Positions 1,772-43,829 of a stretch of 46,738 nucleotides of DNA are shown here, piece by piece (position 1 is the stretch's first letter; the number at the start of each line of letters is the position of its first letter). The notes beneath the pieces are model-generated. The model saw nothing but the letters and a program-made list of their open reading frames with translations, ran no database searches and was not told where the DNA came from. The stretch spans positions 1 to 46,738 of the forward strand of contig JAQCJC010000007.1 of the NCBI GenBank assembly GCA_027593245.1. The letters run 5' to 3'. The stretch comes from Bacteroidota bacterium. Its GTDB lineage: Bacteria; Bacteroidota; Bacteroidia; Flavobacteriales; Flavobacteriaceae. A program made the position numbers and the translations under genes.

Positions 1772-3043
1772 TTACCTAAAAATTGTTTGCTTTCGGTCAG
1801 GGCCAACAGATACAATCTTTATAGGGATTTGTAGTTCGTCCTCTAGAAATTCAATATAGCTAATGAGTGATTCAGGAAGTGTTTCAGCACTGTCCATACT
1901 GGTCAAATCTTCTGCCCATCCTTCAAAATCTGTATATACTGGACTAATATTTTCTGACTCTATATTATAGGGTAGATGTTTTATTTCTTTGCCTTTGTAG
2001 TTGTATGCAGTGCATACTTTCAAAGTTTTAAAACCTGAAAGCACATCAGCTTTCATCATCATAAGTTGTGTTACACCATTGACCTGACAAGCATAACGAA
2101 GTGCAACTAGATCTAACCATCCACATCGTCTAGCTCTACCTGTAGTGGCTCCAAATTCATGACCTACACGACTCATAGTTTCACCATTTTCATCAAAAAG
2201 TTCAGTAGGGAAGGGGCCAGATCCTACACGTGTGGTATAGGCCTTAAAAATCCCAATAACATCTTTTATGGAGTTCGGTGCAACTCCTAGACCGGTACAA
2301 GCGCCAGCAGCAGTTGTATTAGACGAAGTGACAAAGGGGTATGTACCAAAGTCAATATCCAACAAAGAGCCTTGAGCACCTTCAGCTAACACAGATTTTT
2401 GATCGCGTTGTGCTTGATGTAAATACTCCTCTGAATCAATGAACTCTAAAGATTTTAAAGTATCAACGGCTTTAAAAAATTCAATCTCTAATTCACCCAA
2501 ATCGTATTCAAGCTCAATATTGTAAAAATCAATCATCGCTTGGTGTTTGTTAGCGAGATGCCTGTATTTTGCTTTCCAGTCTTCTAATTCAAGATCTCCA
2601 ACGCGAATACCATTCCTTCCAGTTTTATCCATGTATGTTGGTCCAATACCTTTGAGAGTAGAGCCAATTTTGGCTTTGCCTTTTGACGCCTCAGATGCAG
2701 CATCTAACAATCGGTGAGTAGGAAGAATAAGATGTGCTTTACGAGAGATCAATAGTGTTTTTCTGAAATCTACATTTTGATCCGTTAGTTTGTCTAATTC
2801 TTTTTTGAAAATAACAGGATCAATAACAACTCCATTTCCTACAAGGTTTTTTACATCTCCATGAAAAATTCCTGATGGTATGGTGTGTAAAACGTGTTTC
2901 ATTCCATTGAAAACAAGAGTGTGGCCCGCATTTGGCCCACCTTGAAATCGTGCTATTATATCGTAATTTTTGGTTAGTACATCAACAATTTTCCCTTTTC
3001 CTTCATCGCCCCACTGGAGTCCTAATAGCAAATCTACAGCCAT
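1772..3043 (-). CDS. purA: adenylosuccinate synthetase
   Basis: Makes adenylosuccinate from IMP and aspartate using GTP, the first committed step of AMP synthesis, in the cytoplasm. The 423-residue length is normal. The N-terminal GTP/IMP loop WGDEGKGK is at residues 11-18 with the catalytic Asp13, and NAGHT at 38-42 carries catalytic His41. TTGRARRCGW near residue 300 is the IMP/GTP loop, and the protein ends in the usual GPDR...TIF. The ATG at 3043 places GDEGKGK at the standard distance. Only 8 nt separate it from the fur-family gene upstream, so the two are probably one transcript. Confidence 0.98.
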   Translation of the reverse strand: MAVDLLLGLQWGDEGKGKIVDVLTKNYDIIARFQGGPNAGHTLVFNGMKHVLHTIPSGIFHGDVKNLVGNGVVIDPVIFKKELDKLTDQNVDFRKTLLISRKAHLILPTHRLLDAASEASKGKAKIGSTLKGIGPTYMDKTGRNGIRVGDLELEDWKAKYRHLANKHQAMIDFYNIELEYDLGELEIEFFKAVDTLKSLEFIDSEEYLHQAQRDQKSVLAEGAQGSLLDIDFGTYPFVTSSNTTAAGACTGLGVAPNSIKDVIGIFKAYTTRVGSGPFPTELFDENGETMSRVGHEFGATTGRARRCGWLDLVALRYACQVNGVTQLMMMKADVLSGFKTLKVCTAYNYKGKEIKHLPYNIESENISPVYTDFEGWAEDLTSMDSAETLPESLISYIEFLEDELQIPIKIVSVGPDRKQTIFR

Positions 3044-3051
3044 GTGTTATG

Positions 3052-3507
3052 TTAGTTTTTAGTATTTTTTTTTGTTCCGTAGAAGTAAAGAGAATGATTT
3101 TGTATGTCAAGATCAAATACTTCTTCAATGGTTTTTTTTATGGATTGAATTCTTGGATCACAAAACTCGATAATTTCTCCAGTATCTGTTAAAATCACGT
3201 GATCATGTTGTTTATCAAAATAAGATTTTTCATACTGTGCCTGGTTGAGACCAAACTGATGTTTACGTACAAGCCCACATTCCAACAATAATTCAATGGT
3301 GTTGTATAAAGTAGCACGCGAAACACGATACTTCTTATTTTTCATTTTGATGTACAGAGATTCAATATCGAAATGTTCATCGTTATCATAGATCTCTTGC
3401 AGTATGGCAAAACGCTCAGGCGTTTTACGCTGACTATTTTCTTCGAGATAAGTTGTAAAAACATTTTTTACAATTTCCTGATCGCTATTTTTTGATTTTG
3501 AATTCAT
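3052..3507 (-). CDS. Fur-family transcriptional regulator
   Basis: A 151-residue Fur/PerR/Zur-type metalloregulator. The N-terminal winged helix spans about 15-85 ([20 protein letters not shown] is the recognition-helix region) and the dimerisation/metal domain runs from about 90, with [15 protein letters not shown] replacing the canonical HHDHLIC-DCG. The two CxxC structural-zinc pairs of many Fur proteins are absent: only two cysteines are visible, in LLECGL and EFCDP. This pattern is common in Bacteroidota as far as I know. Metal or peroxide specificity cannot be read from the sequence. It sits between spoT and purA and is likely co-transcribed with purA. Confidence 0.9.
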
Positions 3508-3518
3508 AATCTAAACTT

Positions 3519-3526
3519 CAAATTTA
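3519..3526 (-). promoter_or_regulatory. -7 promoter box for the Fur-family gene
   Basis: Minus-strand TAAATTTG matches TAnnTTTG and lies 11 nt before the ATG at 3507. Nineteen nt further upstream, inside the 3' end of spoT, is TTTC, one base from the -33 TTTG. It suggests the fur-purA pair has its own promoter. Confidence 0.4.
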
Positions 3527-3534
3527 ACTAATTT

Positions 3535-5751
3535 TTAGACTCTGGAAACCTTTTCAATGCCATTTATTTTTTTTAGTCTATTCATTAGTTTAGTAACAAA
3601 GTTTGTGTTGTTGACCTCTACGGCTATCTCTCCATAAAATGTACCACTGTCCGAATCAAATTTGATGCTTTTAATATTCACATTCATGTTAGAAGAAATT
3701 AATTTTGTAATATCACTAACGAGTCCTTTTTCGTCAATACCAGTAAGCTTGATTACAGCCCTAAATACTTGTTGTGAAGAATCAATCCATTTGGCTAATA
3801 TAATTCTGTATGCGTAATTGGATTGTAGACTCACAGCATTTGGACAGTTTTTTTTGTGCACTTTTATTCCTTCTTTGATACTTAAAAATCCAAACACTTT
3901 GTCACCAGGAATTGGATTGCAACACGAAGCTACCTTATAGTTAAGTTTTTCTTCCTCTTTACCAAAAACAAGCATGTCATACTTTGAGGTAATCTCATCA
4001 TTATCAATGGTTTCTGAAGGTGTAGCTTTTTTTCTTTGGATTTTACTCTTGATATAACTAACCAAAACGTTACTTCTAGATGCGGCAAATTTTTTCAACA
4101 TAGGGTTGTCAATACTTCCTATACCGATCCTGTAAAACAAATCAAGACTAGTTTGCAGTTTAAAATGGTTAACCAATTCATTTATAGAGCGCTCATCCAA
4201 ATTGATTTTGAGTTGCTTGAGTTTTCGTCTTAAAATCTCTTTACCCTGATGGGCAATAAGCTTCTTTTCTGCCTTGAGCGATGATTTTATTTTACTGCGT
4301 GCTCGCGCTGTCGTTGCATAGTCCAACCAGTTCGAATTTGGTGTGGCATTTTCGGAAGTAATGATGCTGACTTGATCGCCGCTATTTAGAGTATGATTTA
4401 GAGGGACGAGCTTACCATTGACTTTTGCCCCTCTTGTTTTTAGACCAACCTCGGTATGAATACTAAATGCAAAATCTAATGGGGTGGCTTCTTTGGGTAG
4501 GGATTTTAAATCACCCTCGGGCGTAAATACAAAAATCTCTTTAGCGTATAGATTTAGTTTAAATTCTTCTACAAAATCTACCGCATTTGCACCTGGATTG
4601 TCCATTACCTCTTGTAGTTTACCGATCCAGCTTTCTAGGTTTTCATCATTGTTAATTTCGCCTTCTTTGTACTTGTAGTGTGCTGCATACCCTTTTTCTG
4701 CAATTTCGTTCATTCGTTCGCTTCTAATTTGAACTTCCACCCAGCGCCCCTTAGGCCCCATGACTGTTATATGAAGCGCTTCATAGCCCGTTGATTTTGG
4801 TGATGAAATCCAGTCTCTTAAACGGGTTGGATTTGGCCTGAAAAAATCGGTAACAATTGAGTAAATTTTCCAAGCTAAAAACTTTTCGTTTTTTAGTCCG
4901 GATTTATAAATAATTCGAACAGCAAACTTGTCATATACTTCTTCAAATGAAACCCCTTGTTTTTGCATTTTGCGACGAATGGAAAAAATAGACTTTGGGC
5001 GACCTTTTATTTCGTATCTAATTTTTTCTTTATTCAGGGCTCCTTCTAAAATCGTACTAATTTCACTTATATAATTATCTTGATCTTCTTTACTTTCTTT
5101 TAGTTTTAGTAAAATAGACTCATAAACTTCTGGTTCAGTGTATTTTAAAGCCAAATCTTCAAGCTCTGATTTAATATTGTACAGTCCTATTTTATGGGCT
5201 AATGGCGCATAAATATATAGGGTTTCAGAGGCAATTTTGATTTGTTTATCTTCCCGCAGCGATTGAATTGTTTGCATGTTGTGCATACGGTCCGCTATTT
5301 TGATAATAATAACACGAACATCATCATTTAATGTTAGCAGCATTTTTCTAAAATTCTCTGCTTGAAGCGAAATATCCTTATCTTTTTTTAAGCTAGAAAT
5401 TTTGGTAAGCCCATTCACAATTCGTGCTACGGTTTCACCAAACAACTGCTCAATATCACTGATAGAATAATCTTCACAATCTTCTACAACATCGTGGAGA
5501 AGGGCAGCTGCAATAGAAGTTGCATCTAATCCAATCTCAGAGGCTACAATTTTAGCTACAGATATAGGGTGAAAAATATAGGCCTCTCCTGATTTTCTAC
5601 GTTGGTCTTTGTGTGCATCAACTGCAACATCAAAAGCCTTTCTTATCATTTTTTTATCAGCAGCAGATAAATTCCGGTAGCTGATCTTGAGAAGTTCTTT
5701 GTACTCCTTAGCTATAGCGGCATTTTCTTTTTTAATATCTTCTGCAGTCAT
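3535..5751 (-). CDS. spoT: bifunctional (p)ppGpp synthetase/hydrolase, RelA/SpoT family
   Basis: Long RelA/SpoT homologue of 738 residues that makes and degrades the stringent-response alarmone (p)ppGpp. The N-terminal hydrolase HD domain has FHPISVAKIV with His61, LLHDVVED with His86-Asp87, and RMHNM. All metal ligands are present, so hydrolase activity is expected. The synthetase domain at about 240-370 carries YEALHITVMGPKG and VEVQIRSERMNEIAEKG. Then come a TGS domain (IFVFTPEGDLKSLPKEATPL, about 405-465), a conserved cysteine segment (ASCCNPIPGD) and a C-terminal ACT domain (about 660-738). Both catalytic halves look intact, so it is a dual-function Rel/SpoT. It lies upstream of fur and purA on the same strand. 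Confidence 0.96.
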   Translation of the reverse strand: MTAEDIKKENAAIAKEYKELLKISYRNLSAADKKMIRKAFDVAVDAHKDQRRKSGEAYIFHPISVAKIVASEIGLDATSIAAALLHDVVEDCEDYSISDIEQLFGETVARIVNGLTKISSLKKDKDISLQAENFRKMLLTLNDDVRVIIIKIADRMHNMQTIQSLREDKQIKIASETLYIYAPLAHKIGLYNIKSELEDLALKYTEPEVYESILLKLKESKEDQDNYISEISTILEGALNKEKIRYEIKGRPKSIFSIRRKMQKQGVSFEEVYDKFAVRIIYKSGLKNEKFLAWKIYSIVTDFFRPNPTRLRDWISSPKSTGYEALHITVMGPKGRWVEVQIRSERMNEIAEKGYAAHYKYKEGEINNDENLESWIGKLQEVMDNPGANAVDFVEEFKLNLYAKEIFVFTPEGDLKSLPKEATPLDFAFSIHTEVGLKTRGAKVNGKLVPLNHTLNSGDQVSIITSENATPNSNWLDYATTARARSKIKSSLKAEKKLIAHQGKEILRRKLKQLKINLDERSINELVNHFKLQTSLDLFYRIGIGSIDNPMLKKFAASRSNVLVSYIKSKIQRKKATPSETIDNDEITSKYDMLVFGKEEEKLNYKVASCCNPIPGDKVFGFLSIKEGIKVHKKNCPNAVSLQSNYAYRIILAKWIDSSQQVFRAVIKLTGIDEKGLVSDITKLISSNMNVNIKSIKFDSDSGTFYGEIAVEVNNTNFVTKLMNRLKKINGIEKVSRV

Positions 5752-31664: not shown

Positions 31665-33758
31665 CTAATTAATCAATATTTCCAAAACAGCTATTGCAGC
31701 ATCACTTATTTTTGTTCCAGGGCCAAATATTGCAACTGCGCCTGAATCGAAAAGTACTTGATAATCTTGTTTGGGAATAACACCACCAACAATCACCATA
31801 ATATCTTCACGGTTCATTTTTCTTAAATGATTTATTACTTTAGGGACCAGTGTCTTATGTCCTCCTGCTAATGTGGATATACCCAATATATGCACATCAT
31901 TTTCTACTGCTTGTTTTGCTGCTTCTTCTGCCGTTTGGAACAAAGGACCTATATCTACATCGAAACCAAGATCTGCATAGCCAGTAGCAACAACTTTAGC
32001 GCCTCTGTCGTGTCCGTCTTGCCCCATTTTAGCGATCATGATGCGCGGTCTCCTGCCTTCATTGTCTGCAAACTGATCAGCTAATAGCTTAGCTTTTTCA
32101 AAAGACTCATCATTTTTTAATTCTTTTTTATACACCCCTGAAATAGATTTAATTTTTGCTTGATACCGCCCAAATACTCTTTCAAGCGCTGTGCTTATTT
32201 CGCCCAAAGTTGCTCGAACTCTTGCAGCTTCCACTGCTAAAGCTAATAAATTTTCTCCTTTATCCCTCGCTGCAGAACTAAGTTTATTCAGCCATAGATC
32301 TACTTCCTCTTGATTTCGTTTAGCTTTAATCTGTTTTAAACGATTAATTTGCTGCTTTCTTACCAATTCATTGTCGACTTCCAATATATGTAAGGGGTCC
32401 TCGTTTTCTAGTTTAAACTTATTGACCCCCACAATTATATTTTGCCCAGAGTCAATATGGGCTTGTTTTTTGGCGGCTTCTTCTTCAATTTTTAATTTTG
32501 GTATTCCAGCTTCAATAGCTTTAGTCATTCCACCTTGTTGTTCAATATTTTGGATTATCTCCCAAGCTTTTTCAATGATTTGATGTGTCAATAACTCTAC
32601 GTAATAACTACCAGCCCAAGGATCAACAGTTTTGATGATGTGGGTCTCTTTTTGAAGGTACAATTGAGTGTTTCTCGCGATTCGTGCAGAAAAGTCTGTA
32701 GGTAATGCAATAGCTTCATCTAGTGCATTGGTATGTAAGCTTTGAGTACCGCCAAACACTGCCGAAGTAGCTTCTATACATGTTCTTGCAACATTGTTAA
32801 AGGGGTCTTGTTCTGTAAGACTCCAGCCACTTGTTTGACAATGGGTTCTCAAAGCCATTGACTTAGGGTTTTGAGGATTAAATTGTTTGACAATCTTAGC
32901 CCATAATACCCGAGCGGCACGCATTTTAGCAATTTCCATAAAATGATCCATTCCAATACCCCAAAAAAACGATAAACGCGGAGCTAATTTATCAATATCC
33001 AATCCGATTTCGAGCCCTTTTTTCAAATATTCTAAACCATTAGCAAGCGTATATGCCAGTTCAATTTCTGACGGCGCACCTGCTTCCTGCATATGGTAAC
33101 CAGAGATACTGATACTGTTGAATTTTGGCATGTTTTTGCTGCAATATTCAAAAATCTCACCAATAATATGCATTGAAGAAGCAGGAGGGTATATATAGGT
33201 ATTACGTACCATAAATTCCTTGAGAATATCATTTTGTATTGTGCCACTAAGCTCATCTAGATTTACGCCTTGTTCTTGTGCTGCTACAATGTAAAATGCC
33301 ATGATGGGTAAAACTGCACCATTCATTGTCATTGATACGCTCATTTTGTTCAATGGAATTTGATCAAAAAGAATTTTCATGTCTTCAACGGTGTCAATTG
33401 CCACTCCAGCTTTTCCAACATCTCCAATCACTCGTTCATGATCACTATCATAGCCTCTATGCGTAGGCAGATCAAAGGCCACAGACAGACCTTTCTGGCC
33501 TGCTGCAAGGTTTTTTTTATAGAAGTTGTTGGAGTCCTCAGCTGTAGAAAACCCAGCATATTGACGTATGGTCCATGGTCGTCTTACATACATTGTGGAA
33601 TAGGGCCCTCTCAAGAACGGCGGACTTCCTGCGCCAAAACCCAAATGTTTTGTGTGATCTAAATCTTCCTTTGAATAAATATTTGTATTGGCTCTGTTAC
33701 TGTTCTTGACATTCAGATTGGAGGAGAGTTTTATATGTTGTATGTTTTTTCTACTCAT
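31665..33758 (-). CDS. mutB: methylmalonyl-CoA mutase, large (catalytic) subunit
   Basis: Coenzyme B12 enzyme interconverting (R)-methylmalonyl-CoA and succinyl-CoA, 697 residues. The substrate-binding barrel has [19 protein letters not shown] near 60-78 and [14 protein letters not shown]. The C-terminal cobalamin domain has [13 protein letters not shown] near 582-594, where the His is the lower cobalt ligand, and then [15 protein letters not shown] and IVGGVIP. It overlaps mutA by 8 nt. It ends in TAG. No epimerase or MeaB-type GTPase chaperone is in the window. Used for propionate/branched-chain or odd-chain metabolism. Confidence 0.96.
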
Positions 33759-37136: not shown

Positions 37137-39563
37137 CTAACGCAAAACGGCTCCAATTTCACTTTCAAACTTTTTAAGAAGTTTACTCATGAGCTTGTCA
37201 ATTTGTTTATCTGTAAGCGTTTTAGAGTCATCTTTGAGCGTAAAACTTACTGCATAGCTTTTCTTTCCTTCGGGGAGATTCTTTCCTTTATAAACATCAA
37301 ACAAGTTTATATCTGTAAGAACTTTGTTATCCGTTTTTTTTGCAATTTGATAAATCGTATCAAAAGTAATGTCCTCGTTGATGAGTAAAGCAAAATCGCG
37401 ACGCACTTCTGGGAATTTAGAAATAGGTTTAAACTTCACTTTGTTTGATTTAATACAACTAAAAACCAAATCCCAATTGAAATCTGCAAAAAGTACTTGC
37501 TGTTCAATTCCGAAGGCTTTACATATACTTTGCTTTATAATCCCAAACTCAACGGCATTAGTTTTGCCAATTGCCAATGCTAAACTTTCTTCAAACACAT
37601 CGCTTTTTGTCGGATTTGTTTTCAAATTTGTGACGCCTATTTTTTCAAAAATTGAGGATATTATTCCCTTAAGGTAAAAGAAATCAATACTTGAAGGTGA
37701 AGTGGTCCAGCTTTCTGTAGTTTTGCTTCCAGTCGTAAAAACGCCCAAATGTTTAAACTCCTCGCGTCTGTCACCAAATTGATGATATGTTTTAGCGAAT
37801 TCAAACATCTTGAGGTTTGCCTGTTGACGGTTCAAATTAAACGCTAAGGCTTCAAGTCCTGAAAACAACACAGATCTACGCAGTAAGGATAAATCATTGC
37901 TCAGCGGGTTTAAAATCTTTACATAGTTATCCTCAGCCAGTTCGGAACTTAATCCAGTATGTTTTTCAGCAGTAAGAGAATTAGTCATGATTTCATAAAA
38001 TCCAAGACTAACTAAATGATCTGCAATTTTGTTTTCTACAAGATGTTGTTCTTTTTTTGTAGAGTTTGAAATGGAAGCATTTAGTTTATTTGTAAATTCA
38101 ATAGTATTGTAACCATAAACACGTAGGATTTCCTCGATTACATCAATTTCCCTTTGCACATCATTTCTATATTTGGGATGCGCCTAAAGTAATACAGCTT
38201 CTGTTACGCTGTTAACTTTTATTTCTAAGGAAGTTAAAATCTGTTTAATGGTCTCCTTAGGGATTTCCTGACCAATGATGTTGGTGATGTTTTTATAACT
38301 TAAAAGTACTTGAGTATCTTCAATTTTACTGGGGTATTCATCCCATATATCACTAGAAATTTCACCGCCAGCAATTTCAGTAATCAGAAGTGCAGCATGC
38401 TTTAGCGCATATTTTGTAATGTTTGGATCTATGCCGCGTTCAAATCGAAATGAGGCATCTGTGCTTAATCCATGTCTTTTAGCAGTTTTTCGAATACTTA
38501 CAGGATCAAAGTATGCAGATTCTAGAAAAATGTTTGTTGTTGTCGCACTAATACAAGAGTTTATACCACCAAAGACTCCGGCAATACACATGGGTTGTTT
38601 TGAATTACAAATCACTAAATCATCTTGGTGTAGTTTGCGTTCTACATTATCCAATGTAGTAAATTTTTCATTTTTGTGTGCCGTTCGGACTATCAATTTT
38701 TTGTCAGTAATTTTATCCGCATCAAAAGCGTGTAACGGCTGTCCTAAGCCATGTAATACAAAGTTAGTGATGTCTACAATGTTATTGATTGGCACTAAAC
38801 CAATGACTTTTAGCTTATTTTGAAGCCAAGTAGGGGAGTTGTCTACTTTCACTCCAGTAATTGTCACGCCACAGTAGCGAGGAGCTTTAATTTTATCTTT
38901 CACATCAATATCTATTTTAAGTGTACGGCTATTGACGTGAAATCCAGAAACTGATGGGCTCATTAGTTCTGGATTAAGGCCATTTTGAATAAGGCCAGCG
39001 CGTAAATCTCTTGCTGTTCCAAAATGACTCATTGCATCGGCTCTGTTGGGAGTTAATCCAATTTCAAAAACAATGTCGTCTTCTACTTCAAAATAATCTG
39101 ACAATGCTGTTCCTGCTTTTAAATCATTGTCTAACACGAGTATACCTTCATGGCCTGTCCCGAGCCCAAGTTCATCCTCTGCACAGAGCATTCCATGACT
39201 TTCTTCTCCTCTGATTTTCCCTTTTTTGATTTTCCATGGCTCACCTTCAGCAGTGTACAAAGTTGCACCTATTGTAGCAACAGCAACTTTTTGTCCTTTA
39301 GTTACATTTGGAGCGCCACAAACAATTTTAAGAGGTTCATTGTTACCAACGTTTACGCTAGTTAGTTTTAATCGATCTGCATTGGGGTGTTGCATGCAAT
39401 CCAATACTTCTCCAACAACAATCCCCTCTAAGCCTCCTTTTACCGATTGAAACACTTCAGTACCCTCTACTTCGAGACCTAAATCGGTGAGTAATTCTGA
39501 TGTTTTTTCCGGTGACCAGTCTGTATTGACATACTGCTTGATCCAATTGTAAGAAATTTTCAT
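37137..39563 (-). pseudogene. pheT: phenylalanyl-tRNA synthetase beta subunit, interrupted by in-frame TAG
   Basis: An 808-codon gene of normal PheT length, broken by TAG at 38186-38184 (codon 460). The N-terminal part has the EMAP-type tRNA-binding domain (VVGEVLDCMQHPNADRLKL, about 47-65), FRFERGIDPN and the B3/4 and B5 domains. After the stop the same frame resumes AHPKYRNDVQREIDVIEE, the conserved PxYRxDVxRExD core, and runs to the anticodon-binding fold ending KFESEIGAVLR. Alignment by eye with family members puts the TAG at a usually leucine position. PheT is essential, so a sequencing error, readthrough or a real lesion covered elsewhere must be considered. A perfect promoter precedes it. 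Confidence 0.9.
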
Positions 39564-43085: not shown

Positions 43086-43829
43086 TTAAAGGCTGCTCCT
43101 TTTGGCAAAGAGTGCAGCGCCCACGATACCAGCATTGTTTTTTAGTTTTGCAGATTTTAAAGGGGTTTCAATGTCAATATAGCGTTTGAAGTGATCTATT
43201 TTTTTACTCACACCACCTCCTATGATTATTAAATCTGGATTAAAGCTTTTTTCAATATGTGATAGGAAAAAATTCAGACATTTACCCCATTTTCTAAAAT
43301 CCCAATCGTTTCGTTTTCGAGCGGCATCTGAAGCAAACAGTTCCATTATATCACCTTTTTTTCCGTAAAGCCTCCCCAATTCAAAATTTGATAGTAACTC
43401 TCCATTAAAAAATACTCCAGATCCAATACCAGCTCCAAGCGTTATGGTTATCACTAACCCTTTTTATCCTTTCCCTACGCCAAATTCCATAACTCCCATA
43501 GCGGCAGCATCGGCATCATTTACCACAAAAAAAGAGTTATTGGAGTGTTGTTCAAATAATTTATCCACTTGTGTTCCTTTCCAAGATTTATCTAAATTTC
43601 CGAAATGTATCGCTCGACCTTTCTTTATGATCGTGGGAAATGAAACCCCAACAATACTACTCCAATGAAGCTGTTGACAGATGGTTTTTATAACTTCGGA
43701 AATAGCTTCAGGTGTGGCAGGTTTTGGTGTGGGTATACGAATACGATCACTAATTAATTCTCCTTTTTTTGTGTCTACAATGGCACCTTTTATTCCAGAC
43801 CCACCAATATCTATCCCTAATATATTCAT
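43086..43829 (-). pseudogene. ppgK: polyphosphate glucokinase (ROK family), interrupted by in-frame TAA
   Basis: A 247-codon ROK kinase of normal PPGK length that would phosphorylate glucose from polyphosphate or ATP. TAA at 43466-43464 is codon 122. Before it are ILGIDIGGSGIKGAIVD (phosphate loop), VGVSFPTIIKKGRAIHFGNLDKSW and VVNDADAAAMG with the catalytic Asp. After it the same frame continues KGLVITITLGAGIGSGVFFNG, NFELGRL, DLIIIGGGVSKK and NAGIVGAALFA. The local peptide reads GKG, stop, KGLVITITLG; active relatives usually have a lysine there, and AAA to TAA is one change. Error, readthrough or true loss cannot be told apart here. Follows the 158-residue hypothetical gene by 3 nt. Confidence 0.88.

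Follow-up and report, generated by a model that had tools for sequence, protein, structure and literature searches.

The in-frame TAG that interrupts the phenylalanyl-tRNA synthetase beta chain gene (pheT) of this Flavobacteriaceae draft genome is one codon of a 26-base patch of altered sequence, and comparison of the sequence with that of relatives indicates that the patch and the stop are most likely an artefact of assembly or consensus building. At most, the patch would be a very recent and nonfunctional change, with no recoding involved.

Interruption of pheT

The window, by which we mean the whole 46,738-nucleotide stretch of DNA analyzed, is contig C25 of a draft assembly (G000) of 2.02 Mb in 142 contigs, which is 90.9% complete with 3.6% contamination and whose draft character suggests that it is a MAG. 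Its closest relative in our comparison is the single-contig genome G006, to which positions 1-46737 of the window align at 95.64% identity with 12 gap openings.

The pheT gene lies on the minus strand at 37137..39563 (808 codons plus stop). Its translation matches the TIGR00472 model at 834.2 bits from profile position 1 to 798 with one TAG inside, which bears out over the whole length the assignment to pheT made in the initial annotation, and it is 95.5% identical at the protein level to the gene found in collinear position in G006. The minus-strand codons read GCT GTA TTA CTT TAG GCG CAT CCC AAA TAT AGA AAT GAT GTG. This places the TAG at 38184..38186, codon 460 of 808, and translation finds the frame unbroken on both sides, both as first described. 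The result is an upstream open frame of 459 codons plus TAG (38184..39563, minus strand) and a downstream open frame of 340 codons (37137..38159, minus strand) that begins at a GTG, codon 469; the terminal stop of the gene is itself a TAG, at codon 809.

In G006 the interrupted position is a leucine codon, CTA. The site had been called normally leucine, and among 114 aligned pheT loci, in which at least six contigs are present twice, it holds Leu in 109, Ile in three, Met in one, and Val in one. A functional PheT has all of its domains in one open frame; here the TAG falls inside the B5 domain (residues 421-485, Pfam on the G006 protein). The conserved B5 segment of the GLGLTIPAYRNDV type is likewise lacking, as the draft genome reads VLL*AHPKYRNDV, in which the P, Y, R, N, D, and V part is retained and the GLGLTI part is lost.

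A profile search of the contigs found one copy of full pheT, and pheS is present as a single copy without a stop. A match in contig C95 was rejected as a second pheT, being weak, limited to profile positions 46-121, and located inside a 708-codon frame. The earlier suggestion of a second pheT elsewhere thus loses ground, with none in the assembled 90.9% of the genome.

A length-neutral patch surrounds the TAG

A single change from TTG or TTA had been proposed to explain the TAG, which is not what the comparison with G006 reveals. Across positions 38169..38194 (minus strand), the draft genome departs from G006 in 16 of 26 columns without a gap, and GLGLTIPAY becomes VLL*AHPKY. The changes in codons 457-465 are G457V, G459L, L460stop, T461A, I462H, and A464K, while P463 and Y465 are retained via synonymous codons and L458 is unchanged. 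The two pheT genes differ at 121 of 2427 bases, again without a gap, and 16 of these differences are within the patch; the background divergence of the whole window from G006 is 4.4%. By a hand binomial estimate, the chance of the patch is about 1e-15 for one such stretch, too low for independent point mutations, and the surrounding patch rules out point mutation as the source of the TAG. In the 96.9 kb that could be compared between the two genomes (pieces of >500 columns and >88% identity, or >90% in one run), the patch is the densest ungapped stretch, and the next with conserved flanks has 12 differences in 26 columns. Enlarging the G006 sample to 920 kb placed no additional contig of the draft genome.

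On both sides of the patch, pheT is under purifying selection, with dN/dS values against G006 of 0.094 for codons 1-456 and 0.109 for codons 466-808. The change is therefore either very recent or not a real biological one. Sequencing or assembly error was rightly among the options listed in the initial annotation, and it is the best explanation of the TAG here; we infer that sequencing or assembly, and not any event in the cell, introduced the wrong bases. The TAG would then come along with a brief run of incorrect bases (38169-38194) in the draft consensus, possibly from a stretch of reads of low coverage and quality or from a faulty join that introduced substitutions and kept the length, and the living cells would most likely encode an ordinary PheT. 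The sole full pheT, the single intact pheS, and the absence of the patch letters from the other sequences searched count in favor of an artefact, as does G471, another low-completeness genome with a broken pheT.

Decoding of the TAG and split proteins

Readthrough or suppression of the TAG to give a full-length PheT would suit a frame that is unbroken on both sides, but it would mend only one of the six altered residues. As the other five stay changed, decoding the TAG would not restore the segment. The decoding apparatus also speaks against it. A suppressor tRNA with a CTA anticodon had been proposed as something to look for, and CUA occurs in none of 19 tRNA matches, an incomplete set (13 anticodons called by ARAGORN and six read by eye, with 150 of 173 first-look candidates scored), so that suppression loses ground without being disproved. 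Reassignment of UAG would call for loss of RF1 or disuse of TAG as a stop, and neither is found: prfA is present, matching positions 5-357 of a 361-position model with no stop, and TAG ends nine of 45 frames picked from the 61 open frames of the window, the downstream pheT frame included. We consider readthrough very improbable.

Equally hard to credit is a PheT made as two reassembling chains, the first ending at codon 460 and the second restarting at the GTG at 38159. An in-frame GTG does lie nine codons downstream of the TAG, but the reinitiation there that the initial annotation envisaged also loses ground. Codon 469 lies within B5, so the break would fall inside that domain and lose codons 460-468 (LTIPAYRND in G006); the GTG is a Val codon synonymous with the GTA of G006; and no relative listed has a split at this site. 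Ribosomal frameshifting or bypassing as a way to recover the conserved sequence over the patch is the most remote of these ideas. It has the open flanks and nothing beyond them in its favor, and three-frame translation contradicts it, because the remaining frames give LYYFRRIPNIEM and SCITLGASQI, neither with GLGLT.

Search for the origin of the patch

A real and very recent multinucleotide replacement, for example one in which a short piece of foreign DNA entered by illegitimate recombination, could have knocked out pheT in the cells that were sequenced or in a fraction of their population; the allele would then be dying, or an intact pheT copy would lie in sequence missing from the assembly. 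We judge this, taken as a whole, unlikely but deserving of serious weight. A replaced patch between conserved flanks is what it would leave, further genes of the draft genome are broken too, and at 90.9% completeness a second pheT copy could be missing. Against it, PheT is needed for charging tRNA-Phe, the assembly holds no second copy, and none of the relatives searched (60 genomes including our own) has two full-length pheT genes.

The search for a donor also argues against a real replacement. No second occurrence of the patch sequence turned up in the draft assembly at up to three mismatches, as a 27-mer or as a 21-mer (the backwards control of the 21-mer search gave one match), and no exact match to the patch 23-mer was found in viral contigs. 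The donor with border microhomology that short-patch illegitimate recombination requires is thus without a match in its own assembly at three or fewer mismatches and without an exact one in the viral contigs. A chimera with another genome of the family was rejected, as the patch was not found in 298 others, among which G003 and G008 are the only members of the same genus. The longest exact matches to the patch in 356 kb of the genome's own sequence are 12 bases long (window position 31833 and locus L151), and 11 of 60 random 27-mers from the window find at least 12 bases in the window alone.

No local template stood out either, since 99.6% of shuffles were as good as the best direct template and 10% as good as the best inverted one. 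Small compensating indels, or homology with indels, were dismissed, since in alignments with eight relatives 13% of shuffles did as well; for a degenerate back-translation of the motif, likewise dismissed, the figure was 15%. A literature search found nothing on point.

Other interrupted genes in the draft genome

When 73 gene models of G006 were read in the draft genome, four were flagged and three were counted as broken, pheT among them; in the reverse reading of 71 models there was one flag and none was convincing. One flag in each direction was dropped by judgement, namely, L161, a 155-codon frame, and L147, where the frame of the draft genome starts further upstream and the flag looks like an effect of that start. 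These figures replace a cruder count (11 of 77 and five of 77 flagged), in which most inspected flags were indels in leaders. Besides pheT, a ROK-family kinase gene at window positions 43086-43829 (minus strand) is interrupted relative to G006 by a TAA at 43464-43466, with two substitutions in neighboring codons, and a 467-codon gene on contig C16 (L160, alignment columns 1140-2544) is one base short, compared with G006, in a run of five Gs. The broken genes fit scattered consensus errors, though the numbers are small, and the breaks in the ROK kinase and C16 genes could be real pseudogenes.

Several observations count against an artefact. The excess, three of 73 versus none of 71, is small and rests on the two flags dropped by judgement. 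The rest of the consensus looks sound, with dN/dS near 0.1 and 12 gap openings over 46.7 kb. Within the 96.9 kb compared, no other ungapped patch is as dense, so the supposed error is not systematic. Finally, the pheT of an unrelated MAG (L135, described below) is interrupted by stops in this segment too.

pheT stops in other genomes

The initial annotation had recommended comparing the TAG site with close relatives. Among 60 genomes including our own, 57 had pheT over the cutoff, and the draft genome is the only one of these with an internal stop (0 of the 56 others); the patch is likewise absent from the relatives examined. Order-wide, 142 of 148 genomes including our own have pheT, with internal stops in two, the draft genome and G471. 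A further search of 397 genomes, 388 of them with pheT, contained no stop among the best-scoring matches listed, a result that gives no rate, as the row for the draft genome itself is outside those matches.

The pheT of G471 (L209, G471:C1:149500-154500) is broken by several frameshifts and contains 11 stops; its genome comprises about seven contigs at 71% completeness, and the pattern is one that indel-prone sequencing would produce. It was rejected as a further case, having frameshifts along the gene and an intact LKLSVPPYRADV motif. In genus g257, whose genomes in the order-wide set are reduced to 0.6 Mb, the top PheT match begins near profile position 144-158, within open frames of roughly 700 codons; these genes may have lost the N-terminal tRNA-binding part, or it may have diverged.

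Among 80 named pheT loci, the sole other one with a stop before residue 790 is L135, from an uncultured Allomuricauda MAG (NZ_CAKZYF010000215.1), whose pheT at 3001-5421 has TAA at codons 465 and 470, with changed residues on either side (GLWLTITY*LMDV*RDVYV). No second full pheT was found in that genome. It resembles the draft genome in having a sole copy, stops in the same B5 segment, and altered neighboring conserved residues. It differs in belonging, by name, to another genus, and no DNA patch above background divergence is evident there; against the nearest relative compared (72% DNA identity), another part of the gene diverges more than this segment does. By a hand estimate, independent random damage to a gene of 800 codons would land within 10 codons on either side of the same position in about 2 to 3% of cases, and we take the shared position to be coincidence. 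The alternative is that GLGLTIPxYRxDV of pheT is a true damage hotspot in Flavobacteriaceae, where a nuclease or mobile element would attack the conserved site and error-prone repair would follow, leaving independent scars in the two genomes. Altered residues and stops are present in L135, but no DNA patch above the background is evident, which lowered our estimate of this reading to a very slight chance.

Implications and comparison with known systems

A real patch would mean either that the organism survives with an essential synthetase gene disrupted or that something attacks a conserved site in pheT. With an artefact as the preferred reading, the lesson is that an in-frame stop in a draft genome calls for comparison of the surrounding bases with those of a close relative before suppression or a split protein is invoked.

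Short-patch double illegitimate recombination is a known process that produces clustered polymorphisms. The patch in pheT is like its products in being a short cluster of differences with conserved flanks, and it differs in that no donor was found, the length is exactly kept, and an essential gene is inactivated. Set beside bacterial PheT (TIGR00472, Flavobacteriaceae), the gene differs in six of the nine residues at codons 457-465, with the TAG at codon 460; what it shares is a full-length match and a position collinear with that of its G006 counterpart, at 95.5% protein identity.
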